Assembly: GCA_903904885.1 (NCBI GenBank)
Contig: CAIVED010000001.1
Coordinates: 1 to 42,373, forward strand
From: an uncultured archaeon
Lineage (GTDB): Archaea; Nanobdellota; Nanobdellia; Woesearchaeales; CAIVOO01
Direction of reading: 5' to 3'
Length of the DNA: 42,373 nt
A program made the position numbers and the translations under genes. A model generated the notes under the pieces. The model was not told where the DNA came from, ran no database searches, and saw only the letters and a list, made by a program, of their open reading frames with translations. Numbering within the stretch: the first letter of the stretch is position 1; every line of letters begins with the position of its first letter. Of the stretch, positions 2 through 37,471 are shown one piece after another.

Positions 2-631
2 GAGTTTTACAACAGACTTTTTGGATGGGATCCTCAAAGCAATCCTGCCATGGGCAGCGTATATAATGCAGACAGCCTTGCACTAAGAATGACAATAATG
101 AATGGCCTCCCGCCCCAGTTTTTCAGGGCAGCAATACATGCATCTATCTCAAATAGGAAGTTTGCTGAAGAGGCAAGGCAGAATGGATATGTTGGGGGAT
201 TAATACTTCTTCCAATGGAAACAGTCAGTGAAATAGTTTCGACAAGAGAGTTGTATTCAAGAAGCTATAAAGAAAAAATGTTGCAGAAAGACTACTGGGC
301 CAGCCATGATACAGACCTTGAACTCGCTGCAGTTGCAACGCAGGCAATGACATCCTATCTCGGAAAAGGAAATGTTTCAACATTATATGCCAGATTATTT
401 GCAGGCAACAAAGAAGTTGACAAGGCAATTAAAAAAGCAAACAGCGATGATTTTGCTGATTTCTCACCATTTCTTAATCCCTCTGCAAGAGAACTGGTAA
501 ACAGGGCAGTTGCCTTTCATCCGTTTATGGCGGAAGATGCGATGCCAATGAAAGATGTCCGCTGGCAATTCAATCAGGAATATTCGTATGAAGTTCCCAT
601 GAAGATTTGGCTTAATGAACATAAATTATAA
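2..631 (+). CDS. Unknown protein, 5'-truncated by the window edge
   Basis: The reading frame is open from base 2, so the true start lies outside the window; an internal ATG at 50 is only a fallback. The visible 209 residues have no motif I recognise. The sequence is soluble-looking and mixed in composition, with aromatic residues near the C-terminus (VRWQFNQEYSYEVPMKIW). The stop overlaps by 6 nt the stop of the convergent AbrB-PhoU gene. No function is proposed. Confidence 0.75.
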   Translation, partial: EFYNRLFGWDPQSNPAMGSVYNADSLALRMTIMNGLPPQFFRAAIHASISNRKFAEEARQNGYVGGLILLPMETVSEIVSTRELYSRSYKEKMLQKDYWASHDTDLELAAVATQAMTSYLGKGNVSTLYARLFAGNKEVDKAIKKANSDDFADFSPFLNPSARELVNRAVAFHPFMAEDAMPMKDVRWQFNQEYSYEVPMKIWLNEHKL

Positions 632-1537
632 TTTTTCAGAATTAAGCGTTAAAAGCGGCCCGACCAAATTCTGGATTGTGTGCAGAATTTCAGAGATATA
701 ATTCAGCATTCGTGATTCGCTTACTGATTTGGTCTTGAACAACTCATTGATTTCCTTCATTGTTTTCAATATCCTTGACCCAAGGTCCACTATTTTTTCC
801 CTGTCAAAATTACTGAATATTACCTGGAAATCGTTGAGAATCCCGTTTACTCTCTCAAATATCTCAATTATTTTTTTGTCAGGCATTGTTTTTGCTTCAA
901 AAGAGTATCTTGCAAAATCCTTGTATATGTCCCCGATTGATTCCAGCCCCTCTATTACGTAATAAAGCATTGGAGCGTCCCTTGGGTCCACGAGCCCCTT
1001 GTTTATTATCCTCCTGCAGAAATTTGCATACTTGTTTATTATCAAATCCCTCTCGGGTATTGTTCCCAGAATTTCAATATTCTTGTTTTTGAGCGCGTTT
1101 GCGCAGTCCTCGGCTATTGAGAAAAGCATGTTGAACGTCCTGCTCGTTATGGAATTGAAATTTGTCTCCTTTGCCTCAACAATCTCCTTTATCGTGCATC
1201 CCTTTTCGGTCTGGCTTATTATTTCAAAACCGACAAATTCCTGTAGGACAGAATAAATCTTTGAAACGTCTTCTGGTTTGCTGAAATTTATTGTTATTTC
1301 ATCATAGCCAGCCTTGTATAAAGCGCTTATGACCCTTCTCCATATCTCCTTCAATTCTGAGATGTTTATTGCCGCTTTCCTTATTTCAGGCAAAGTTTGA
1401 GAAGCTATAAGAAGTTCCCTCCCTTTCTCAACTACATCGACCTCGTCGCCCTTGCTGAGGCGGTACTTTCTCGTCCATTTGGAGGGCAGGCTCACCATCA
1501 GGGTGGCTGCGCCCTGCCTGACTATGCTTCGTTTCAT
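626..1537 (-). CDS. AbrB-PhoU domain regulator, copy 1
   Basis: The first ~45 residues (MKRSIVRQGAATLMVSLPSK..., then LSKGDEVDVVEKGRELLIA) form a SpoVT/AbrB-type swapped-hairpin DNA-binding domain. Residues ~95-300 are helical and PhoU-like, with repeated acidic and basic helices. Fusions of this kind are common in archaea and are usually linked to phosphate uptake control, but no pst genes are nearby, so the ligand is unknown. A paralogue of the same architecture lies at 33905-34858. The upstream region holds three inverted repeats and a series of AGTATAWAWACTTT-like motifs, suggesting tight and perhaps autogenous control. Length 303 aa fits the family. Confidence 0.85.
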   Translation of the reverse strand: MKRSIVRQGAATLMVSLPSKWTRKYRLSKGDEVDVVEKGRELLIASQTLPEIRKAAINISELKEIWRRVISALYKAGYDEITINFSKPEDVSKIYSVLQEFVGFEIISQTEKGCTIKEIVEAKETNFNSITSRTFNMLFSIAEDCANALKNKNIEILGTIPERDLIINKYANFCRRIINKGLVDPRDAPMLYYVIEGLESIGDIYKDFARYSFEAKTMPDKKIIEIFERVNGILNDFQVIFSNFDREKIVDLGSRILKTMKEINELFKTKSVSESRMLNYISEILHTIQNLVGPLLTLNSEKL

Positions 1538-1768: not shown

Positions 1769-2311
1769 ATGACTGGAAATGATAATGCAATGGTACTTTA
1801 TGCACAGAATGCAGGCCTGGATATATCCCGATGCATGATGGACGTACAAACCCCTATTTCAAAACTTGAAATTGAAACAAGGATAGTTGTAGATGAGTAT
1901 ATGTTTGCAGGAGGATTTAGAGACCTTGAGTTAGATACGCATGGAATTTTGGGATTTGCTTATGCTAGACTATTTGAGGAACTAAGAGTAAGGCAAGAGC
2001 AAGAACCATCTTTTTCAGACAAAGTCCTGAAAAGGATATTTGGGGAAAAAGCGCCTAGGTCTTGTATTGAACATGAAGGGAAAAGATATTGCAGAAAATG
2101 GGGTGTGGCAAATGGAGAAAGCAGAGAAAGAATTCTATGGTACAATGAGCATACAAGAAAAGCTGAGATACAAAAAGAGCTAATTGGAAAATTGAAATTA
2201 AATATTTCAACATGGGAACATACATTAGTCTCCAACGAACTGTTACTTGCACTTTTTAGTCCATTGCTTCCCCCTCTGGAAAAATTATTTTATGAGATGG
2301 CGAGGTTTTGA
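1769..2311 (+). CDS. Unknown 180-aa protein heading the accessory operon
   Basis: I do not recognise this protein. It has no signal peptide. The middle is charged, with two cysteines in a short basic stretch (RSCIEHEGKRYCRKWG), and the C-terminus is hydrophobic and Leu-rich (LLLALFSPLLPPLEKLF), a possible amphipathic or membrane-contacting helix. The ATG follows an SD-like GGAGTGGTGA. It is the first gene of a tightly packed + strand series that runs to 9303; the next ATG begins 2 nt after its stop, so translation is probably coupled. Confidence 0.7.
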   Translation: MTGNDNAMVLYAQNAGLDISRCMMDVQTPISKLEIETRIVVDEYMFAGGFRDLELDTHGILGFAYARLFEELRVRQEQEPSFSDKVLKRIFGEKAPRSCIEHEGKRYCRKWGVANGESRERILWYNEHTRKAEIQKELIGKLKLNISTWEHTLVSNELLLALFSPLLPPLEKLFYEMARF

Positions 2312-2313
2312 AA

Positions 2314-2673
2314 ATGAGAGCAATAATTTTATCAGACATGGAAACGGATGTTGAAAGGGTTCTGATAGACCACATCCTGAAGAAAGAGCACGGCTATGAT
2401 TCAAGACTTGTTACCGCTGAAGACAAGCTGTACGATGCGCTTGAAACAGAACAATTTGATGTTGCAGTAATCCACGCAACCACCAACCCAGACTGGGAAA
2501 ATACTGCATTCAGGATAAGGTCAGCGACTCAGATACCAATCTATGCCATACATGGAATAATGGACAAGGACAAACCTGCCTTGCCCAGGATGCTGGAAGA
2601 ACAAAATATCCAATTCTCCAACTACGGGGGCATTGACAAATTCGGAGAATGGCTTGAGGAGCATAAAAAATGA
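2314..2673 (+). CDS. Degenerate receiver-like protein A1
   Basis: This 119-aa alpha/beta protein has the strand-helix alternation of a response-regulator receiver or flavodoxin-like fold: MRAIILSDME, then FDVAVIHATT, then IPIYAIHG. Where a receiver would have its phosphorylated Asp, at the end of the third strand, there is His-Ala-Thr-Thr, so phosphorylation is unlikely. I chose the ATG at 2314 over a TTG at 2308 that overlaps the previous stop. A similar layout is seen at 3751 and 4693, suggesting three diverged copies. The stop overlaps the next start by ATGA. Confidence 0.7.
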   Translation: MRAIILSDMETDVERVLIDHILKKEHGYDSRLVTAEDKLYDALETEQFDVAVIHATTNPDWENTAFRIRSATQIPIYAIHGIMDKDKPALPRMLEEQNIQFSNYGGIDKFGEWLEEHKK

Positions 2674-3230
2674 CAGAAACACAATTTTGGGAAGATGACT
2701 GCCCGCTGTTGCAGGAGATCGTTGGTAAGGAATGGGAAAGCTACAGAACTAATTTATGGGCGAATGATGCCATTGAGTATCATACTGACAATTCTAAAGT
2801 AATGGATATGCCAGCAAAATTGTATCTTGAAAGAGAAGCAATCATACAAAAAGTAGAAAACTTTTACGGAAAAACAATTGAGGCTGCTCTGGGAAAACCG
2901 CTTGATGATAATTCAAACGAGTTTGCAGGAAACATGGGAACAAGGTTAAACATTTCGCTTGGTCTTCCAATTATTGGCGGGACAGAAGCACCATATTTAC
3001 TTCTTTTCACTTCAATAGACGGCGCTGAGCCAGAGGAAATCATAAGGTGCTGTGCTGATGTAATCCAGGCAAGGGATTTCCTGGCAAAAAAAGGATACGA
3101 GATTGAATATGAGCAAAATGAGGGAAATCTGGACCACACAATTAATCCTAAAATTGACAGCGTGGCTGAACTGAAGACCTTTTTGGGGGATTTAAAGCAG
3201 TTGTATGACCTATTTGAGGGAGGAAAATGA
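2670..3230 (+). CDS. FWED-motif protein B1 (unknown)
   Basis: This 186-aa protein begins MTETQFWEDDCPLLQEIVG and is clearly paralogous to the protein at 4112-4696, which begins MTEPTFWEDESPLIRLIAG. The two also share a C-terminal helix with spaced leucines (KTFLGDLKQLYDLFEGGK against DKLFSDIRKVYDSLGGKK). The middle is alpha/beta and variable. No catalytic motif is evident. It follows a receiver-like gene with an ATGA overlap and precedes the true receiver with another, so receiver-like and FWED proteins may be partners. The function is unknown. Confidence 0.75.
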   Translation: MTETQFWEDDCPLLQEIVGKEWESYRTNLWANDAIEYHTDNSKVMDMPAKLYLEREAIIQKVENFYGKTIEAALGKPLDDNSNEFAGNMGTRLNISLGLPIIGGTEAPYLLLFTSIDGAEPEEIIRCCADVIQARDFLAKKGYEIEYEQNEGNLDHTINPKIDSVAELKTFLGDLKQLYDLFEGGK

Positions 3231-3754
3231 CAGAAACACCAAAAATATTGATAGTTGAAGACAACAAAGCTCATCTTCAGAATGCTGTTGAACAGCTTGG
3301 GCATTTTGTGGATTTAACCACTGCAAAGAATTTTGACAGCGGATTGGATGCATTGAGGGATGGCAAGTTTACTTTTATGCTTACTGACCTGATGATGCCG
3401 AAAGGAACCAGCAGAACCATGGGCGACAGGGGAATGGAGATGATTTTTGAAGAAATGCCCTACGGATTTCCTCTTGCATTCTATGCTGCAAGAAAAGAAG
3501 TTCCTATAATTGCAATTGTTACAGACATAAACCATCACCAGCATCCGATGGCCTACTCTTTTGATTACATCCACGGGGTTCACAGGATTAACAATTCCAT
3601 CCTGAAGGTTGGCGGCGCTCCAATGATGCCCAAAGGAGACATTTACGTCAAAGACTGGGCAAGGGCGCTTCTGGACCTGAGAGAAATGGACCTCAAAGAG
3701 GCCTTTCCTGAGATGGAATTTTTTCAAAAGCTTAAGGAGGAATATGGAAAATGA
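3227..3754 (+). CDS. Response-regulator receiver protein with intact phosphoacceptor site
   Basis: The 175-aa protein has the receiver landmarks: acidic pair E11-D12 after the first strand (ILIVEDN), phosphoacceptor D54 in LTDLMMPKG, Thr99 at the end of IIAIVTD, and a Lys near 136-142 followed by a C-terminal helix. An insertion between the third strand and later helices (residues ~60-92) and another around the His-rich NHHQHP make it longer than a minimal receiver. No output domain is fused, and no histidine kinase lies in the window, so the phosphodonor is unknown. It sits between B1 and A2 with ATGA overlaps on both sides. Confidence 0.85.
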   Translation: MTETPKILIVEDNKAHLQNAVEQLGHFVDLTTAKNFDSGLDALRDGKFTFMLTDLMMPKGTSRTMGDRGMEMIFEEMPYGFPLAFYAARKEVPIIAIVTDINHHQHPMAYSFDYIHGVHRINNSILKVGGAPMMPKGDIYVKDWARALLDLREMDLKEAFPEMEFFQKLKEEYGK

Positions 3755-4119
3755 AACTTGCAATCTACTGCGAACAGGGAAATCCTGTAGGAAAAGCTCT
3801 GGAAATGATAACCAAAACCCTTGGAAGCCATGAACCAACAATAGTCTGCGATGAAAGCGCACTATATGACTGGATACAGGAAAACCAGTATCAGGCAATG
3901 ATAATGGTTTCAGTAGCCAACCCTGAAAGAAATTTGAGTCTTGCAAAAGCAGTCAGAAAAATAACAGGAATTCCGATTTATAATTTAGTAGTTAAGGAAG
4001 AGAATTTGGAAGACCTGACAAGCAAGAATATCCGCACTATTCCAATTATGAGCGGCATGCCTGATTTGATAGCTTTGCTTGCAGAAGCAGAGAAAAATTT
4101 AGGAGACAGGCATGACTGA
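3751..4119 (+). CDS. Degenerate receiver-like protein A2
   Basis: This 122-aa protein repeats the A1 layout: MKLAIYCEQGN, then YQAMIMVSVANPERN, then IPIYNLVV. No Asp stands at the receiver phosphorylation position; Val-Ala-Asn is there instead. It follows the true receiver (ATGA overlap) and overlaps the second FWED gene by 8 nt. The order A-B-receiver-A-B-A fits tandem duplication of an A-B pair. The role is probably protein interaction, by analogy with pseudo-receivers; this is inference. Confidence 0.65.
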   Translation: MKLAIYCEQGNPVGKALEMITKTLGSHEPTIVCDESALYDWIQENQYQAMIMVSVANPERNLSLAKAVRKITGIPIYNLVVKEENLEDLTSKNIRTIPIMSGMPDLIALLAEAEKNLGDRHD

Positions 4120-4696
4120 ACCAACATTCTGGGAAGATGAATCGCCTCTTATCCGACTGATTGCTGGAGAGGAATGGACAGAACTTAAGAGAATTTGCCC
4201 AAGAAGGGTATCCCAAGGATATTATGTTATAGGGCTTACCACACCGAGAGCGCAGGAATTATACCAAAAAGCAGAAGATAAGCTTGAAGAGGCTTACGGA
4301 AAAATAATCCAGCCACATTTTAACGGTGTTGCTTTTTACAAATTGCAGGACAGGCTCTTCCAAGTCTCTTACCCTCCGGAAGAAATAAGGGATCTTCTTA
4401 TTGAAATCAATGTGATGCTTCCTGATTTTGGTTCCAGACGCCTTCCGTTTCCAGAATTGACCTTCAACATGCTGCACGACCCTGAGCTGGCAAAAGGGGA
4501 AAACATAAAGCAGCTGATATCCCTTGAAACAAAATTTCTTGATGTTTTCGAAGAGCAAGGGTACGTTTTCCAGTCAACTAGCGATAATATTGCAACAAGG
4601 CACTTCACGCAAACAAAAGTCTCAAAACTTGAAGAGCTGGACAAACTGTTTTCAGACATTAGAAAGGTTTATGACAGCTTGGGAGGGAAAAAATGA
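4112..4696 (+). CDS. FWED-motif protein B2 (unknown)
   Basis: This 194-aa paralogue of B1 has the same N-terminal signature (MTEPTFWEDESPL, EEW at ~20) and the same C-terminal leucine-spaced helix. The centre differs strongly, so the two proteins may have separate partners. No signal peptide, membrane segment or known catalytic motif is visible. The start lies inside the previous gene (8-nt overlap) and the stop overlaps the next start by ATGA, so expression is likely coupled. Confidence 0.75.
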   Translation: MTEPTFWEDESPLIRLIAGEEWTELKRICPRRVSQGYYVIGLTTPRAQELYQKAEDKLEEAYGKIIQPHFNGVAFYKLQDRLFQVSYPPEEIRDLLIEINVMLPDFGSRRLPFPELTFNMLHDPELAKGENIKQLISLETKFLDVFEEQGYVFQSTSDNIATRHFTQTKVSKLEELDKLFSDIRKVYDSLGGKK

Positions 4697-5046
4697 GAAT
4701 CCTGTTTTTAGGCAAAGCGAACTCGGAAATTTCATCTGCAATACAGGGGAATCTGCTGGAAAGAAAAGATGTTTTTGCAGACATTGCATACAATGAACTG
4801 CAGGCCTATGAATCGCTTTTGAGAAGCCCGGAGCTGGTCATAATCTCAGAGCAATGTGAAAGTGTTCCTCTGATAACTAGAGGAAAAACAGAAAAACCAA
4901 TAATGTATGTCCATTCAAAACCGCTTAAAGACGCTGAAAAACTAAAAGAACGGAAAATTTACTGTTACCCGTCAAACAAACTAGGCAATTTCTATGTTGA
5001 CCTTTCATTGTTTCTTGGAAGAATTGGGGCAGGAGAAGGAGCATAG
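4693..5046 (+). CDS. Degenerate receiver-like protein A3
   Basis: This 117-aa alpha/beta protein begins MRILFLGKAN and resembles A1 and A2 in strand order (PELVIISEQ, then KPIMYVHS). The position expected to hold the phosphoacceptor Asp is Ser-Glu. The acidic pair after the first strand is also lost (Gly-Lys). It is the third degenerate receiver of the block and directly precedes the exported beta-rich protein with a 4-nt gap. The relation to receivers is based on fold pattern only and is tentative. Confidence 0.6.
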   Translation: MRILFLGKANSEISSAIQGNLLERKDVFADIAYNELQAYESLLRSPELVIISEQCESVPLITRGKTEKPIMYVHSKPLKDAEKLKERKIYCYPSNKLGNFYVDLSLFLGRIGAGEGA

Positions 5047-5050
5047 ATAA

Positions 5051-6169
5051 ATGAACCTTAAAACAGCCCTCGGAATCGGAGCAGTAACATTGTTGTCTTT
5101 CCTAGCCCCTGCTCTTGCCAAGGCAGAGGCAAAGATTGATGCGGCTTATTCTTTCATCAACAGGCCGAAGATAGAATACGCAATGAGAGGCGCGAGGATT
5201 GGATTTTATGATGAAAACTCTTTTTTCGGGGGAGAGCAGCAGCAAATAGAAACTAAGGGAGAAACGCAAATAAGGAATCTTGCAGGCGCAAGAGTGCCTG
5301 TTGATTTGGGCGGCCATCTCTTGAGGGCAGAGATAATGGGCTCCCAGGAAGCTGAGCAAAACACATTTGGTGTAAGATTAAGATACTTCTTTGATGAAAA
5401 TCACTCGCTTGGCCCTATTGTTGAATCTTTAGCAAAAAAAACAGAAAACAATACGCTCTACGGAATCCAGGGCCATGTTGAATGGCGCGGGATAAGAACT
5501 GAAGGCGGGGTTTACAATCTGATAACACCAAAAGAAACAAAGATTCTTGTCAACGGCGTAACAAATTTCACTGCACTGGACCACAGATTCGGGCTTGCAT
5601 GGAAATTATCAGAAGAACAACAGTGGTACGGCCTTGTTGCTGTAAATCTCAAAGGAAATTTTGGATATCATCTTAAATTCACCTATGAGCCAACAGCGGG
5701 AAAAGCATCTCAAAGAATAGTATTGGCCGACAGCCCAATGGTTGCGCCGTTTGCTTACTATCCTTTGTCTCCGCTGTATGGCGGTGATTCAATGGTGGAC
5801 ATCATTCCAGAATACCCTGATTCTCCTGGCAGTGTTGCAGGAGTGGATGAATTTTATGTTCCGGTATATTTCCCCATGCAGAAAAAAGCTGCCCTATGGA
5901 TCAACCACCTGTCAGACCAGAGAGCTAATACCGAGAGGCTTGAGGTTGAAGGAGCAATATACCCCTTTGCAATGCTCCAGGAAGACAATTTCTTCAGGAA
6001 TTTATTTGTTGGGGCAAAATGGGTCCAGAGCAGGGCAGGGAATGAAACAGAAACCTCAACAAGCGGATATATCGGGCTGATAAAAGGTCCTTTCAGGTTT
6101 GTAGTCCAGCAGGAAGAGGGAAAAAAGGGCGAAACAGTTGGATATGTGATGTGGAGCCAGCAGTTTTGA
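5051..6169 (+). CDS. Exported beta-strand-rich protein, barrel-like, copy 1
   Basis: Residues 1-26 form a Sec-type signal peptide (MNLKTALG, a hydrophobic core, then ALAKAEA). The mature chain has many short amphipathic beta strands with alternating polar and hydrophobic residues and aromatic ends (HSLGPIVES, YGIQGHVEWRG, GYIGLIKGPFRFVVQ) and ends in Phe (VGYVMWSQQF), a layout typical of outer-membrane beta-barrels. An archaeal cell with one membrane has no obvious place for such a barrel, so a surface beta-sandwich is an alternative. A paralogue lies at 9484-10548; both contain YPF...N.FVGAKW near the C-terminus. The function is unknown. Confidence 0.75.
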   Translation: MNLKTALGIGAVTLLSFLAPALAKAEAKIDAAYSFINRPKIEYAMRGARIGFYDENSFFGGEQQQIETKGETQIRNLAGARVPVDLGGHLLRAEIMGSQEAEQNTFGVRLRYFFDENHSLGPIVESLAKKTENNTLYGIQGHVEWRGIRTEGGVYNLITPKETKILVNGVTNFTALDHRFGLAWKLSEEQQWYGLVAVNLKGNFGYHLKFTYEPTAGKASQRIVLADSPMVAPFAYYPLSPLYGGDSMVDIIPEYPDSPGSVAGVDEFYVPVYFPMQKKAALWINHLSDQRANTERLEVEGAIYPFAMLQEDNFFRNLFVGAKWVQSRAGNETETSTSGYIGLIKGPFRFVVQQEEGKKGETVGYVMWSQQF

Positions 6170-6175
6170 GGGGAA

Positions 6176-7102
6176 ATGAATCTTGAACTATTACTTACAG
6201 AAGCAGCAGCCGGTTTTGGTACAGGCGTATTGCTGGGTGTGAGATTTGACAGGAAGTATAATTTTGTACTGGAATTTGACAAAGCCCATTCAGAAATCGG
6301 CGGTAAGCTAGCTATTAATGAAGGCGCAGAAAAGCAAATTTCCCTTTTGCCTTTAGGAAGTTCCATGATGATGGGAGGATTGGCAGGCCTGGTAAATTTG
6401 CCCCAGGGACCGACAATAGCTCTTGAAGGGATTAGCATTTCCATGATATCAACATACGCAGGGTTTAAGGCAGGAGAATATGCCAGCAGGTTTCTAAGAA
6501 AAAAGACAAGATTAAATGATTCTGAACAAGCAGAACTGGACGGCATATTCGATGATTTGAAACAAAACGCAATGAATGACGAGAGTTTTAGCGAACCGTC
6601 TCAAAGACTAAACAGTTTTTTCACAAGAGCTATACAACGCAGCAGAAATCCGGATATTTGCAAAGAAATTTATAACAGAATAGAGGGATTAAACACTGAA
6701 GTTACTGCCTGGAGGGACGCAAGGGCATTAAAAAATTTCCTTCAGCTAACTGAAATGGCAGGGGTCGGCTCCTGCACAATAAATCCTGATCTGAAAGGCG
6801 TTCCTTATGTTGTAATTCTGCACGAAGGGAAAGGCTATCAAACCATGATATCAATAAGTCATGAGCCAGGCGTTGGGGAATATGAAGGTTTTTTTGCTGG
6901 CCGGGGAAGGGTAGAAGAGGCTTTTTCCTGGGATAACAAGCCGGAAACACTGCTGCAGATAATAAACGAGCGTTATCGTGACAAGCCGGTGATACTTGTG
7001 TCGGGATGTTCTGAAGCCCCTCTGGAAATGAAGGGAATGTGTTCTGTACAAGCATTTGCCCAGGACTATAAGCAGAAAAAGAAGTTAGAAAAGTTGAATT
7101 AG
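6176..7102 (+). CDS. Membrane-anchored unknown protein (308 aa)
   Basis: The N-terminus contains glycine-rich hydrophobic stretches (residues ~5-22 and ~56-98, including LGSSMMMGGLAGLV and ISISMISTYAGF) that look like two or three membrane segments. A soluble helical region follows, then a mixed alpha/beta C-terminal domain (PYVVILHEGKG, KPVILVSGCSE). No known motif was found. The gene starts 6 nt after the beta-rich protein and ends 5 nt before the sigma-like gene, so all three are likely co-transcribed. It might link envelope and cytoplasm, but that is inference. Confidence 0.65.
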   Translation: MNLELLLTEAAAGFGTGVLLGVRFDRKYNFVLEFDKAHSEIGGKLAINEGAEKQISLLPLGSSMMMGGLAGLVNLPQGPTIALEGISISMISTYAGFKAGEYASRFLRKKTRLNDSEQAELDGIFDDLKQNAMNDESFSEPSQRLNSFFTRAIQRSRNPDICKEIYNRIEGLNTEVTAWRDARALKNFLQLTEMAGVGSCTINPDLKGVPYVVILHEGKGYQTMISISHEPGVGEYEGFFAGRGRVEEAFSWDNKPETLLQIINERYRDKPVILVSGCSEAPLEMKGMCSVQAFAQDYKQKKKLEKLN

Positions 7103-7107
7103 AAAAG

Positions 7108-9303
7108 ATGACATCGGATGACCGAGAACTCGAACTTATTCAACGCGCTAAAACTGGAGATTCTTACGCGCAGGAAGAGATAGTTAAAAAGTATGAAAAA
7201 CTCGCAATCTGGGCCATTCCTTCTAAGCTGAGAAATGATGATGAGATTCAAGAGGCAAAAATTGATGCCTGGAGAGCGATAAATGATTTTGACCCCTCTT
7301 TGGGTAGCCTGACAACACTAATTGTCAAGTATGTCAAAAACGGTGTCTTTACCAGAAGGCGAAGTGAAAAATCAAAAAAGATAATCCCAAAAGACAAAAT
7401 TGTTTCATTGTATGAATATGTAAACGCGGAAACAGACAGAGTTCTAATTGAAACATTAGACTCAGAAAGAGCAGCGCTTCCTGGCTGGGAGAAACAGCAA
7501 CCAATATCTTTTCTTGAGACACGTGTTGACCTAGGCGATTTGATTTCAAGAACAGAGCTTTCAGAAAAGGAAAAAAATGCTTTGCTTATGCATCTCCAAG
7601 GCATGAACAATACAGAAATAGGAGATGTAATGAACCTTTCGCGACAAAGAATAAGCCAAATCATTAAGGAAATATTATGCAAGCTCAAAGGCTCAGTCTA
7701 TGAGCCAAATTTGATAAGTCTTATGGACGGAGAAAAAAATTCTCGTTTTGAATTTCCCCAGGACCATTTAAAAATGCAGAGGATACTCTTCAAGCACGTT
7801 CTTAATCAAACTGGTTTGCCTGTTGAGAAAATAACCTGGGAGCTTGTGCAAAAATACGGATTGCGGGAGATTATTCCTGGGAACTCTCGAAAACCTCCAA
7901 GAAAAGCAGAAGTCATCAACAGACTTTTATCCCCTGAAAAAAGGATGCCTGATTTCTGCTTCCTGGGAACAAGAAAATGGAAAGGGGAAGATGCGAAAGC
8001 AAAATCTTTTGATGCAATGGAATATTTGGTTATGAATTTTGCATACATTGCAAGCACCCCTGCTTTTGATATAGTACCTTGGCTGCAGGGAATGGTTAGC
8101 GGGGTGTATGCCTATAGTTGTAAGCGGGCAAATAAAGAGTTCCAATATGAAAGACTTAAACTTGATGACCCGCAAATGAAGAGAATGAGTTTATTATCAA
8201 GCACAACAGACAATAACTCAAAACTTCTAGGTGGAAATCACAAGAATGCCAAAGGGAAGGTAATAGACCATCTTGAAAAGTTAGAGAACATAATTAATAA
8301 CTCCCCTCTGACTACCAGAGAAAGAAAAATTCTGGATTTATGGGTGGATGGTAAGGACTGGGGCGAAATATTTGGCAATATTCCTGAAGAGTTTGGTGGT
8401 GCAAAAGAAAAAAAAGACAGCATGGTAAGACAGGAAATGGGCCGCATCAAAAATAAAATAAAGCTGGGAGCCATCTTACTTTTCCCATCCTACGAGGAAG
8501 GCGCAGATCTTGAAGAGATTGAAAAAGAAACATCAGAAAGGTTTCATTCAGGTAAAGAGCTTAGCATTTTTGACAGGTATTTCAGGTTAAGGCTTGGAGC
8601 AGTAATAAAGGAGGTTGCAAGAGAGAGAAAATGGAAACTAGAGGATTTTCCTTATGTTGCAAAGAACAGTCACTTTCATGACAGATTTGGCAACATTATG
8701 GAAGTTTTTGGCCATTCTGTCTCGAGAATGGCACTTTTTGCCTTTCCGGATTTGTGGAAAGAATGGCAGTTTAATTTTAAAGGCAGATGGGATGGTGAGA
8801 GAGGCAGAGAAAGAGCGTTCAGCGCCATTGAGGATATTTTGGAGAAAGAGCGCTCATTCATTTTTACAACTGCACATTGCAAAAAATACCGTTTGCGTGG
8901 GATGCTGGATTCATTTGGGAAAGGGAATTACATTGGAATAAATCAGCTATTTTGCAGGGATTACTGGGGTAAGAGGATAAACACTAATTTTGAGATGCAT
9001 GACAGAAACAGGAAACTGCTTGCTCTTTTGTTTGATGCACGCGGCAGTCCTTATGCCAGAAAGCCAAAAATGAGCCCAGAGGATATTACTAACTTTGACA
9101 GAAAAAATCTTTACAGGCTGGCAGGGCTTTCACAATCTGAAGAACTGCAATGGGAAACTCGTATTGAGATCTGGAATTATGGGGCAGGATATCTCAAACA
9201 CATTGAAGTTGGAAAAATGACCAGCCTGTCTTCTAAAGTTTGCAGATATCACTTTAATACTACAAGGGAAAGAATGACAGAGATAGTCTCAAAAATGTAC
9301 TAA
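7108..9303 (+). CDS. Sigma-70-like protein with region 2 and region 4 signatures, 731 aa
   Basis: Residues ~7-86 read as bacterial sigma-70 region 2: LIQRAKTGDSYAQEEIVKKY, then DDEIQEAKIDAWRAINDFDP and a basic end VFTRRRS. Residues ~150-196 read as region 4, a helix-turn-helix: LSEKEKNALLMHLQGMNNTEIG then LSRQRISQIIKEIL. A second, weaker set occurs at ~303-356 and ~400-455 (LTTRERKILDLWVDGKDWGEI). The motif (K/R)W(K/D)GE near 290-307 recurs at 560-578. Archaeal RNA polymerase uses TBP and TFB, so a true sigma role is unproven; it may be a DNA-binding protein derived from a bacterial or viral sigma. It ends the 1769-9303 operon. Confidence 0.8.
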   Translation: MTSDDRELELIQRAKTGDSYAQEEIVKKYEKLAIWAIPSKLRNDDEIQEAKIDAWRAINDFDPSLGSLTTLIVKYVKNGVFTRRRSEKSKKIIPKDKIVSLYEYVNAETDRVLIETLDSERAALPGWEKQQPISFLETRVDLGDLISRTELSEKEKNALLMHLQGMNNTEIGDVMNLSRQRISQIIKEILCKLKGSVYEPNLISLMDGEKNSRFEFPQDHLKMQRILFKHVLNQTGLPVEKITWELVQKYGLREIIPGNSRKPPRKAEVINRLLSPEKRMPDFCFLGTRKWKGEDAKAKSFDAMEYLVMNFAYIASTPAFDIVPWLQGMVSGVYAYSCKRANKEFQYERLKLDDPQMKRMSLLSSTTDNNSKLLGGNHKNAKGKVIDHLEKLENIINNSPLTTRERKILDLWVDGKDWGEIFGNIPEEFGGAKEKKDSMVRQEMGRIKNKIKLGAILLFPSYEEGADLEEIEKETSERFHSGKELSIFDRYFRLRLGAVIKEVARERKWKLEDFPYVAKNSHFHDRFGNIMEVFGHSVSRMALFAFPDLWKEWQFNFKGRWDGERGRERAFSAIEDILEKERSFIFTTAHCKKYRLRGMLDSFGKGNYIGINQLFCRDYWGKRINTNFEMHDRNRKLLALLFDARGSPYARKPKMSPEDITNFDRKNLYRLAGLSQSEELQWETRIEIWNYGAGYLKHIEVGKMTSLSSKVCRYHFNTTRERMTEIVSKMY

Positions 9304-9339: not shown

Positions 9340-9411
9340 GTGAGTTTGCCCATTTACCCTAAAAACAATAAAAATCACGCTTTTGTGATACTTTCTTTCC
9401 TTTTTTAATAA

Positions 9412-9452
9412 ACTATGTGACAAAAAGTAAAAATTTCTATGTAACAAAAATT
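9412..9452 (+). promoter_or_regulatory. Promoter region of the second beta-rich protein, with direct repeats
   Basis: CTATGTGACAAAAA (from 9412) and CTATGTAACAAAAA (from 9436) are direct repeats 24 nt apart. The second runs into AAATTAAATA, a plausible TATA box ~30-35 nt before the ATG at 9484. The pair could be a two-site operator. It gives this gene a promoter separate from the long upstream operon. Confidence 0.45.
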
Positions 9453-9483: not shown

Positions 9484-10548
9484 ATGAGCTGGGCAAAAAA
9501 AATAACAGGAAAGACAAGAAAGGGAATCGCAACCATGGCAGCGGCACTGTTCCTGCTTGGCGCTCCCTTGCTGTCAAAATCAGATGAAATAAATATTTCC
9601 AACTCCTTTGCAAACGAAAAAAACAGGAATTCCCTTGAATTTAAGATAAATCATGAAGAAGAATTTGACCTAGGGGACAAATATGTTCCTCAATCAGGGC
9701 CGGTTTCCCTTAGAGCCATCGGACCAACGCCTTTCTCAGATTCAAAAAAGATTTTCTCAGGCACAAATTCGTCTGTATCGCTGTTTGCCAAAACATCAGA
9801 CCTGAGAACAGAGCATCCGGATTACTGCGGAGTCCGCATTCGTTCTGAAAACGACGGCTCAAGGGCAGACCTCATCCTCGGTGGAGAGCTGGTCGGTTCC
9901 CGGAGCATTCCATATTTGAGCAGTTTTAACATAATAAGAATTCCTGGAGGCAATCTCATACTTGCCGCAGACATTTCAACCAATGAGGGCATCTATTCTG
10001 CTGGATTTTTCAACAGCAACAATGCAGTTGGCTACGGCGCATTCCTGACCTATGACACTCTAGACAGAAAAAGCCTTGAGCAAATTGTGATAACCGACGG
10101 CAATCTGCTCAGCAGAAGGCATGCCTATTACATAACAAACTTTCCCGAAGATCCGATTTGGGCAACCCCCTTTGATTTTGCAGAAAGGGGCGGCATCCGG
10201 CTTGAGCATTCATATTCTGCTCCTGACAGAAACGACCGCATTTCAGCAGAAGCCATGATATACCCATTCAGCTATGCTGCAGGAAGGGAGAACATCGGCA
10301 ACTGGTTTGTCGGAGCGAAATGGGACAGAACCTCCATGCCCGGGGAAAAAAGCGAATCTGCCTGGGTCAGCACCGGCTACACCAGCGGGAGCATAAGGAT
10401 TTACCTATCCAAAGAAGTTTCAGGCAAGGAAAAACTGGCCGGCGGATTTGACGTCACGCTTGAAACGCAGAAGCTTGCCGCGCTCAGGGGATTTGCTGAT
10501 TACGACCTGATTTCCCTCGGAACTCTTTTAGGCGGGGTTGGGAAGTAA
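9484..10548 (+). CDS. Exported beta-strand-rich protein, copy 2
   Basis: This 354-aa protein has a basic n-region and hydrophobic core (residues ~1-33, KKITGKTRKG then TMAAALFLLGAPLL), consistent with a signal peptide. The rest is beta-strand rich. It matches the 5051 protein along its second half: VGYGAFLTYD against FGYHLKFTYE, QIVITDGN against RIVLADSP, and IYPFSYAAGRENIGNWFVGAKW against IYPFAMLQEDNFFRNLFVGAKW (shown in part). Unlike copy 1 it does not end in Phe. The sigma-like gene lies between the paralogues. Confidence 0.75.
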   Translation: MSWAKKITGKTRKGIATMAAALFLLGAPLLSKSDEINISNSFANEKNRNSLEFKINHEEEFDLGDKYVPQSGPVSLRAIGPTPFSDSKKIFSGTNSSVSLFAKTSDLRTEHPDYCGVRIRSENDGSRADLILGGELVGSRSIPYLSSFNIIRIPGGNLILAADISTNEGIYSAGFFNSNNAVGYGAFLTYDTLDRKSLEQIVITDGNLLSRRHAYYITNFPEDPIWATPFDFAERGGIRLEHSYSAPDRNDRISAEAMIYPFSYAAGRENIGNWFVGAKWDRTSMPGEKSESAWVSTGYTSGSIRIYLSKEVSGKEKLAGGFDVTLETQKLAALRGFADYDLISLGTLLGGVGK

Positions 10549-26498: not shown

Positions 26499-26633
26499 AG
26501 GCAACAAAGGCAGAAATTCGGGGTTATTTGATTATAAGCTGTTATGTTCAATAAATTTGAAGTCTTAAAGAAATAGGAGAAGACGGCTTTCCTTTTGACA
26601 ACATTTAAATATATTCTATCATTTTTTGGTTAT

Positions 26634-27365
26634 ATGAAATTTGAATTTAAAAGACATCAAATAAGTAAAATTCCTCGCAAAAAAATTATTGAAGAACTTG
26701 AGAAAGTTGCAAAACATTTTAATTACACAGATTTCAAGCAAGATGACTTCGATAAACTTGCAGATACAAGCCATGATACAGTTTACAGAGAATTTGGTTC
26801 TTGGGAAAAAACAATGCAATTTCTTAAAGAATATCTGAAACAGAAAGGAATAGATTTTGAAATCATTTCTAGGAGAAGCATATATTCCATGAAAGAAATG
26901 TTTGATGAAATGGAAAGAATATGGTTAATACTTAGTCATAGACCTTCAAAAAATGAATGGGCTGCGAACAATCCCAACATTAGCTATGATACAATATACC
27001 GACATTTTGGTGGTTGGAAAAATGCTTGCTTAAAGTTCATAGAATACAAATCAGGCGAAGAAGTTGCTTCAGATGAAAATTTACCAAAACTAATCAAAAG
27101 CACAAAATCTTTACTCATAAATCACCCAACAAAAAATAAAATAGCAAATGCAAGAACAATTTCTCTAAGTATTAGATTAAAAGTGTTGAATAGAGATAAA
27201 TTTCGATGCGTTTTTTGTGGGAAAAGTCCAGCTACCGATATTGGCACAAAACTTCACATTGACCACATAAAACCATTTTCAAAAGGTGGCAAGAGTACAT
27301 TGGAAAATCTTCAAACATTATGTGAAGAATGTAATCTGGGGAAAAGTGATAGAAAAATTGATTAA
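26634..27365 (+). CDS. HNH endonuclease with two homing-associated repeats
   Basis: The 243-aa protein has two helical repeats of the homing-endonuclease-associated type (~18-66 and ~90-140), each ending in a (D)TVYREFGSWEK or DTIYRHFGGWKN phrase that binds DNA. An HNH zinc-dependent nuclease follows (~178-243): CVFCGKS and CEECN supply zinc Cys, and LHIDHIKPFSKGG holds the catalytic His. The ATG at 26634 is chosen because TTTAAATATAT (26604-26614) lies ~25 nt before it; a TTG at 26595 would place the TATA box inside the gene. A solitary mobile nuclease is likely. Confidence 0.85.
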   Translation: MKFEFKRHQISKIPRKKIIEELEKVAKHFNYTDFKQDDFDKLADTSHDTVYREFGSWEKTMQFLKEYLKQKGIDFEIISRRSIYSMKEMFDEMERIWLILSHRPSKNEWAANNPNISYDTIYRHFGGWKNACLKFIEYKSGEEVASDENLPKLIKSTKSLLINHPTKNKIANARTISLSIRLKVLNRDKFRCVFCGKSPATDIGTKLHIDHIKPFSKGGKSTLENLQTLCEECNLGKSDRKID

Positions 27366-35989: not shown

Positions 35990-37471
35990 TCACTTCTCCG
36001 GCTTCATTGTCGGAAAGAACATCACGTCTCTTATTGTTGGGGAATTGGTGAGAAGCATAACCATCCTGTCAATTCCAAGGCCAACGCCTCCGCATGGCGG
36101 CATTCCGAATTCTATTGCCCTGACAAAGTCTTCATCCATTGGATGAGCTTCCTCAAATCCTGCTCTCAGTAGTTCTGCCTGCTCCTGCAGCCTTTTCTTC
36201 TGCTCAACAGGATCGTTTAATTCCGAATACACCGCACCGATCTCCCATCCGTTTGCAAACGGCTCAGCCCTCTCCACCAACGCAGGATTTTTCCTGCTGA
36301 CTTTTATTAGCGGGCAGACTTCGCACGGTGGGTCAAGTATGAAAGTCGGCTGGGTGAGCTCTGCTTCAACAAGCTCTTCAAACAAGGAGGTTATTATCGC
36401 CCCCCGAGTCAAATCCCCCTCAATCTGCAGATTATAAGTATTTACCAAATCTTTCAGCTCATCATCAGAAAGCGTTTCAACATCAATTTTGGCCTGCTCC
36501 TTGAGCGCGTCCGCCATTGAAACTCTTTTCCATGGTGTTTTGAAATCAATCTTCTTCCCCTGGTATTCAACAACCGTTGTCCCAAGCACTTTTTTTGCAA
36601 CAAAGGAATAAAGTTCCTCAAATACTCTCATGATATCCGCGTAATCAGTATATGCCCAGTAAAATTCAAGCATGGTAAATTCGGGATTGTGTGTTTTATC
36701 CATTCCCTCATTCCTGAAATTCTTGCAGATTTCATAGACCTTGTCAAATCCCCCGACAACCAGCCTCTTGAGATACAATTCAGGGGCAATCCTCAGATAC
36801 ATGTCAAAATCCAATGCATTGTGATGTGTTTTGAATGGCTTTGCATTTGCCCCCCCATAAATTGGCTGCAGGACAGGTGTTTCAACCTCAACAAATCCTT
36901 TTTTATCAAAAAACTCCCTGATTGCAGAAATTATTTTCGCCCTTGCGATGAAAACATTCTTTTTCTCAGGGTCCATAATCAAATCAAGGTATCTGCGCCT
37001 GTATTTCAGTTCCGGATCCTGAATTCCATGGTATTTCTCAGGCAAGGGATATAGTGATTTGCATAAAAGCTGCAGTTTTTTTACCTCAACTGTTGTTTCT
37101 CCGGTTTTTGTCTTGAAAACAAGCCCCTCAACACCAATTATGTCTCCAATGTCAAACAATTTGAACAGCTCAAAATTATTCTTGTCATCATCATCTTTCA
37201 GGAGAATCTGCATTTTGCCGGTTTCATCCTGCAGATGGGCAAATGCTATTTTTCCCATTTTCCTTATTGCCATAAGACGGCCTGCAATGGAAACATTCTC
37301 AGTTGTCATGTCCCCCGGCTTCAGGTGCATGTTTTTCTCAAGAATTTCCTGCGAATTATTTTTCCTGTCAAAACTGTAGGGATAAGGATTTACGCCTTTT
37401 TTCCTGATTTCTTCAAGCTTCTTGTACCTGTCGGTTATTACAGAAGATTCAACCTCTATTTCCTTTTCCAT
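35990..37471 (-). CDS. lysS: Lysyl-tRNA synthetase, class II
   Basis: It charges tRNA-Lys. The 493-aa protein has an N-terminal OB-fold anticodon domain (~55-165) and a class II catalytic core: motif 2 NFRNEGMDKTHNPEFTMLEF and motif 3 GVGLGIDRMVML. Many archaea use the unrelated class I LysRS, so a bacterial-type class II enzyme is worth noting. CTATATAAAT centred ~27 nt upstream supports the leaderless start at 37471. The P element copy 2 lies just beyond that TATA box. Confidence 0.96.
   Translation of the reverse strand: MEKEIEVESSVITDRYKKLEEIRKKGVNPYPYSFDRKNNSQEILEKNMHLKPGDMTTENVSIAGRLMAIRKMGKIAFAHLQDETGKMQILLKDDDDKNNFELFKLFDIGDIIGVEGLVFKTKTGETTVEVKKLQLLCKSLYPLPEKYHGIQDPELKYRRRYLDLIMDPEKKNVFIARAKIISAIREFFDKKGFVEVETPVLQPIYGGANAKPFKTHHNALDFDMYLRIAPELYLKRLVVGGFDKVYEICKNFRNEGMDKTHNPEFTMLEFYWAYTDYADIMRVFEELYSFVAKKVLGTTVVEYQGKKIDFKTPWKRVSMADALKEQAKIDVETLSDDELKDLVNTYNLQIEGDLTRGAIITSLFEELVEAELTQPTFILDPPCEVCPLIKVSRKNPALVERAEPFANGWEIGAVYSELNDPVEQKKRLQEQAELLRAGFEEAHPMDEDFVRAIEFGMPPCGGVGLGIDRMVMLLTNSPTIRDVMFFPTMKPEK

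Follow-up and report, generated by a model that had tools for sequence, protein, structure and literature searches.

A long sigma70-family protein in a Woesearchaeales chromosome and the polymerase it may act upon

The gene block and its archaeal setting

The sequence considered here, called the window, is a stretch of 42,373 nucleotides from an uncultured Woesearchaeales archaeon, in which genes, as in all loci discussed below, were called mechanically. Near its start lies a tightly packed run of forward-strand genes (1769-9303) whose last member, at 7108-9303, encodes a 731-residue protein of the sigma70 family. The sigma gene begins 5 nt past a gene for a probable membrane-associated protein (6176-7102, forward strand), so described from hydrophobic stretches in its N-terminal part, and a gap of 180 nt separates it from the next gene, at 9484-10548 on the same strand, for a probable secreted protein. 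The latter is a paralogue (E 5.8e-5 to 10171-10431) of another probable secreted protein within the run (5051-6169, forward strand), which has an N-terminal hydrophobic signal and a strand-like pattern; neither of these two flanking proteins matched any family. The pattern of alternating strands and the aromatic last residue of the 5051-6169 protein are reminiscent of beta-barrels. In the gap before the 9484 gene the motif CTATGTRACAAAAA occurs twice (about 9410-9450) and is a possible operator or promoter element.

The membrane-associated protein encoded at 6176-7102 matched no family and has three distant relatives in 352 genomes; only speculatively can it be called a regulator of the sigma protein. 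Its relatives in two other loci (L144, 8612-17090; L146, 12744-18770) lie near genes that by eye look E1-like, JAB-like and proteasome-type ATPase-like, perhaps a ubiquitin-like system. The beginning of the run (1769-5046, forward strand) consists of seven short genes, tightly packed or overlapping, for degenerate receiver-like proteins and paralogous small proteins, as judged from their sequences and from a Response_reg match on 3227-3754 (1e-4, below cut-off). Between 2308 and 5046 the degenerate receiver-like proteins are interleaved with a pair of duplicates (2670-3230 and 4112-4696), in a manner resembling cassette duplication.

Upstream of the block, and divergent from it, is an AbrB/PhoU-type gene (626-1537, reverse strand) with a MazE_antitoxin domain match just under cut-off (3.3e-5, 24.2 bits) and strong similarity to other AbrB/PhoU-type proteins (phmmer 1e-29). 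This divergent arrangement recurs, through relatives of the AbrB/PhoU-type and block genes, in two genomes (L145_13/L145_8 and L146_2/L146_1). The intervening forward-strand promoter region (1633-1767) holds TATA-like sequence and AGTATAxATACTT repeats (motif family D1), palindrome-like and present at least three times at 1633-1704, and this TATA-rich head of the block, read by sequence, is consistent with archaeal-type transcription.

The setting beyond the block is archaeal, as the initial annotation had it: the uS7, uS12 and NusA-like genes that come next on the contig match archaeal equivalogs, and a TFB gene is present in the genome, which is 98.7% complete. The GC content at third codon positions (GC3) is 0.28-0.49 in the block, for the most part below the values around it, a mild hint of either foreign origin or relaxed constraint. 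Elsewhere in the window, a possible gene at 26595-27365 is markedly low in GC (0.30) and GC3 (0.21) relative to the rest, and the class II lysyl-tRNA synthetase encoded at 35990-37471 is of bacterial type, exceeding the lysS_bact cut-off, here in an archaeon.

The sigma head and the C-terminal extension

The first 200 residues of the 7108-9303 protein form a sigma head with regions 2 and 4, which the initial annotation had recognised by eye and which profiles and predicted fold now substantiate. NCBIfam TIGR02937 (sigma70-ECF) matches residues 21-194 (2e-15; 56.8 bits, cut-off 42.9) and Pfam Sigma70_r4 residues 150-194 (5e-7, 29.6 bits against 24.1), while Sigma70_r2 falls just under its cut-off of 24 on the whole protein (21.9 bits) and just over it on the head alone (25.5 bits) or in the genome search (25.9 bits), which also found this to be the single sigma copy in the genome. 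Of the phage families, phrog_351 ("RNA polymerase sigma factor") gives 3e-21 for the open reading frame and 3.8e-19 for the head, and phrog_1740 gives 7.2e-14 for the head. In an AlphaFold2 model of the head, built with 16 archaeal sigma relatives as input, the pLDDT is about 95 in sigma2 and about 90 in sigma4, and all 50 Foldseek matches listed from the PDB were sigma-factor or sigma-polymerase entries; global TM-scores stay low, since the placement of the two domains relative to each other is free. Region 2 thus spans residues of about 7-95 (7126-7392, forward strand; Sigma70_r2 on the fragment, model and alignment A4), and the region 4 helix-turn-helix residues 149-196 (7552-7695, forward strand; LSEKEKNALLMHLQGMNNTEIGDVMNLSRQRISQIIKEILCKLKG), with model helices at 153-195. 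Both the region 2 fold and profile and the region 4 helix-turn-helix that mark the family are present, and it is nearly certain that this is a sigma70-family protein in an archaeon.

The residues of region 2 give a mixed answer. The core-binding signature of region 2.2, D45-x-x-Q48-E49 (D403, Q406 and E407 of sigma70), is retained, whereas the promoter-melting aromatics of region 2.3 (F427, Y430, W433 and W434 of sigma70) are gone, the stretch reading LTTLIVKYVKN, and the protein may therefore not initiate transcription at all. The four aromatics are the set of group 1 sigma factors, from which ECF sigma factors also differ, so that their loss does not exclude membership of the sigma70 family as a whole. 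Bacterial sigma factors of the ECF/SigH type (TIGR02937, TIGR02859) share with the window protein the sigma2 and sigma4 domains, the short linker and the D-x-x-Q-E signature, but the window protein differs in lacking the promoter-melting aromatics and in carrying a C-terminal extension of about 530 residues, and it misses all curated equivalog cut-offs of the ECF/SigH subgroup by far (39.1 against 294.8 bits for SigH). Nor does it have an export signal or a transmembrane stretch, and no secretion system was recognised beside the gene.

Within the extension, the initial annotation had described a second, weaker set of sigma signatures. A region-4-like helix-turn-helix signal is indeed found at residues of about 399-455 (8302-8472, forward strand), through GerE (LuxR-type; about residues 400-420, 16 bits, E 0.009) and phrog_5767, "sigma factor" (about residues 340-451, E 0.0014); judged by sequence, E-values of 0.001-0.01 are suggestive of this second helix-turn-helix, not proof. 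The other half of the set, a second region 2, gave no profile signal after residue 200. A W-x-G-x-x-G-R repeat at residues of about 540-604 (8725-8919, forward strand) resembles by phmmer the repeats of a relative, L101_4, which itself matches Pfam DUF4046 (PF13255) at 2.8e-14, whereas the window protein has no direct Pfam match there. A possible third region-4-like helix-turn-helix at residues of about 655-731 (9070-9300, forward strand) has no Pfam match of its own in the window protein and is suggested by alignments (A2/A5) to L100_2, a distant long-type relative with a full sigma2-sigma3-sigma4 head, whose aligned stretch (residues 765-801) matches Sigma70_r4_2. The model of the extension has a pLDDT of 56.8 and no meaningful fold match, and for this reason its fold is not claimed.

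The long type is sparse and changes fast. Close relatives of the window protein were found neither in 84,980 genomes nor in 2.9 million viral contigs, and relatives that are clear over the C-terminus come from two genomes only (G057 and G058), with that of L100_2 (G009) more distant. A syntenic long-type pair, L098_15 and L099_14, shares 25% identity where the two align, against 74-99% for most neighbours in conserved position, a few others being 22-42% identical; the C-terminal part of L098_15 likewise has no close relative in the 2.9 million viral contigs. In the same otherwise conserved stretch, L098_9 and L098_10 too are only 22-30% identical between congeneric genomes.

Sigma genes among Woesearchaeales and their relatives

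A bacterial sigma70-family protein does lie in an archaeal chromosome, yet it is not the isolated oddity that the initial annotation implied. Of the 352 genomes of the order, 140 have sigma2 (79 of the 180 good ones), and it occurs in other orders of the class as well (102 of 277 genomes in a phylum sample, with a stricter threshold); the sigma-bearing genomes include ones in one or two contigs (G012 and G183). Sigma70 genes in Woesearchaeota are not a new phenomenon, since they were reported in 2021 as prevalent there (fam00359), beside TBP, TFB and TFE, with no anti-sigma factor recognised, as in the loci studied here, and with mis-binning ruled out (Castelle et al., 2021; PMC8204110). The main text of that study gives sigma70 one paragraph, without analysis of architecture, residues, polymerase, promoters or rates (PMC8204110); new here, relative to the literature covered, are the long architecture, the order-wide count, and the residue, polymerase, promoter and rate results.

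The relatives comprise an RpoD-like type (400-1700 residues, some as tandem arrays of two or three), an ECF type and a FliA type; one RpoD-like member exceeds the RpoD_Cterm cut-off (358.4 against 354). The window protein is a divergent member of the rarer long type. Sigma neighbours in the relatives are largely ordinary archaeal genes, and no conserved anti-sigma partner is common to the sigma loci, save a membrane winged-helix protein in four genomes of one family. In these (L049, 1817-6994; L054, 86-5275; L057, 8689-12073; L073, 11181-13299) its gene is followed by one to three RpoD-like sigma genes, and the protein, in which a signal peptide is combined with an extracellular domain, a single transmembrane helix and a cytoplasmic winged helix, is a candidate membrane sensor for archaeal sigma factors. 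Genes for ATPases that by eye are of the GHKL type (MutL/Hsp90-like) lie beside RpoD-like sigma genes in two other loci (L042, 11068-13446; L056, 6323-8359).

The contacts of a bacterial sigma factor are widely kept in the RpoD-like type. Residues were counted in 47 copies aligned to an E. coli sigma70 sequence, its numbering checked against known positions, and two alignments (A1 and A3), in which heads or ECF rows were misplaced because of repeats, were left out of all residue claims. Core contacts are conserved at D403 (45/47), Q406 (35/47) and E407 (42/47), residues that melt the -10 element at F427 (45/47), Y430 (42/47), W433 (31/47) and W434 (41/47), and readers of the -35 element at R584 (38/46), E585 (41/46), R588 (40/47) and Q589 (41/47). 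Between congeneric genomes, the sigma genes have a dN/dS over sigma2-sigma4 of 0.16-0.37, several times the 0.01-0.13 of most syntenic neighbours (a single fast one has 0.48), which places typical copies under purifying selection, yet fast-changing. The phylogeny, which covers the RpoD-like type alone (the head of the window protein is too short and divergent for a tree), is star-like, with 27 of 54 inner branches open and bacterial sequences falling at three positions. The branches of the archaeal sigma factors are long and lie far from the bacterial ones, and no bacterial sigma factor closer than about 50% was found for the one copy searched, in a bacterial sampling biased by exact-peptide seeding.

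These results bear on where the genes come from. That the window contig is bacterial, through contamination or mis-assembly, might be thought of because the genome, probably assembled from a metagenome, is split into 44 contigs, but the archaeal uS7, uS12 and NusA genes after the block on the same contig, the occurrence of relatives in contigs of 0.7-1.5 Mb and the long archaeal sigma branches make its probability negligible, and it is rejected for practical purposes; mis-binning was also excluded by Castelle et al. for their own sigma genes (PMC8204110).

A more serious alternative, though an improbable one, is that the gene is something that a virus, a plasmid or a defence island carries or has left behind, and that the sigma protein serves that element. 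The strong matches of the head to phrog_351 and phrog_1740, the best of any phage profiles, speak for it, as do the low GC3 of the block relative to most of the window, the resemblance of RpoD-like relatives to MzaA, which is the sigma-like component of the anti-phage system MZA, and a GHKL-type ATPase gene (L042_12) directly upstream of one such relative. The C-terminal extension alone, however, has no phrog_351 match, and no full-length relative was found in the phage genomes searched, nor any relative among the viral contigs. RpoD-like relatives match MzaA over sigma2-sigma4 but far below cut-off (374 against 800), and the window protein has no PADLOC match. Further against such an element, no viral, integrase or plasmid genes were recognised in the block, and the genes around sigma in the relatives are for the most part ordinary archaeal ones. 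Membership of the MZA system is rejected, its cut-offs not being reached, although the GHKL-type neighbours recall it. The window protein descends from a bacterial or phage sigma factor, has its gene established in a Woesearchaeales chromosome and is enlarged at its C-terminus.

Polymerase, promoters and the possible target of the sigma factors

In textbooks, archaeal transcription starts with the help of TBP and TFB, not sigma, and no sigma factor is known to work with an archaeal RNA polymerase. Exactly one Rpo1N, archaeal in sequence, is encoded in each of 20 genomes, that of the window (G000) included, and with this as the largest-subunit gene no bacterial core polymerase was found in the same cell in those 20 genomes, a fact that bears on how the sigma protein can work, not on its ancestry. 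The clamp coiled coil of Rpo1N is ordinary archaeal and uniform across genomes with and without sigma. Promoters tell a similar story: TTGACA-N16-18-TATAAT occurs 48 times against 47 in reversed controls, without excess, in 30 sigma-bearing genomes, and the ratio for extended -10 elements is 1.33 with sigma and 1.35 without (p 0.64). These searches cover near-consensus sigma70 sites only, and not sites that are few, degenerate, ECF-type or specific to long sigma factors; for such near-consensus sites the lack of excess speaks against a broad sigma70-type regulon at home, which is rejected. One genome (G332) has 16 forward TTGACA-N16-18-TATAAT matches, far above other genomes and probably a repeat.

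The homology between the clamp coiled coils of archaea and bacteria, with the purifying selection on the sigma genes, speaks for a working sigma factor for the archaeon's own RNA polymerase at a few special promoters, beside the TBP/TFB pathway. Set against it are the clamp helices of Rpo1N, which are the same whether or not sigma is present, and the missing promoter signature, and we hold this possibility to be slighter still than service to a mobile element.

Far more plausible, although tentative, is a sigma-derived DNA-binding regulator at home, whose sigma4 and extra helix-turn-helix modules would bind archaeal operators with no bacterial polymerase involved, and whose sigma2 would be a structural relic or a protein-protein interface. 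The loss of the region 2.3 aromatics, the added modules of helix-turn-helix type, the single sigma copy in the genome, the degenerate receiver-like proteins of a block that faces an AbrB/PhoU-type gene, and the lack of excess sigma70-type promoters all argue for it. What counts against it are the core contacts, for which a protein that only binds DNA has no use and which are kept both in the D-x-x-Q-E signature of the window protein and across the 47 divergent RpoD-like relatives.

Closely ahead of the home regulator we place, with a probability of roughly 0.4, the explanation that the sigma protein docks on a bacterial-type polymerase that is not the archaeon's own and belongs to a partner, a prey or an invading element. 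At home, an archaeal promoter would drive the sigma gene together with those of its block for the membrane-associated protein and the two probable secreted ones; sigma2, we infer, would dock on the clamp helices of an RNA polymerase that is of bacterial type and absent from the archaeon, and sigma4 and the added modules would choose the DNA sites. Kept core and promoter contacts, an exclusively archaeal polymerase, the lack of promoter excess and fast evolution together make the option of a partner's polymerase more credible, and a bacterial target is ecologically possible in view of genomic work that found pore-forming toxins and peptidoglycan degradation in Woesearchaeota and read them as predation on bacteria (PMC9723730). 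In a more specific and rather unlikely form of this foreign-polymerase explanation, Woesearchaeales and related DPANN archaea would maintain a quickly evolving repertoire of bacterial sigma factors that is delivered into, or met inside, the cells of a bacterial partner or prey and reprogrammes bacterial RNA polymerase there. The window protein, enlarged and with several helix-turn-helix modules, would in that case hold polymerase or promoters rather than start transcription. Against a foreign target stand the failure to find an export route and the loss of the region 2.3 aromatics in the window copy; the best evidence for it, moreover, comes from RpoD-like relatives and not from the divergent long type, and horizontal acquisition followed by limited time could also account for the conserved residues.

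The initial annotation was right about the sigma identity and the archaeal setting and incomplete on prevalence, for sigma70 is common in Woesearchaeota; the three options that it raised, an exapted DNA-binding protein, a viral import and a factor for the polymerase of a partner, are all among the explanations weighed above. In a large archaeal group, purifying selection preserves sigma factors whose bacterial contacts are intact, although the only polymerase there is archaeal. An archaeal polymerase driven by sigma, sigma domains turned into regulators at home, or archaea that act on bacterial transcription would each be new. Whose polymerase the archaeal sigma factors control is now a sharp question, testable through the loci, residues and genomes given here, and, if true, action on a partner or prey would be a transcriptional takeover across domains of life.
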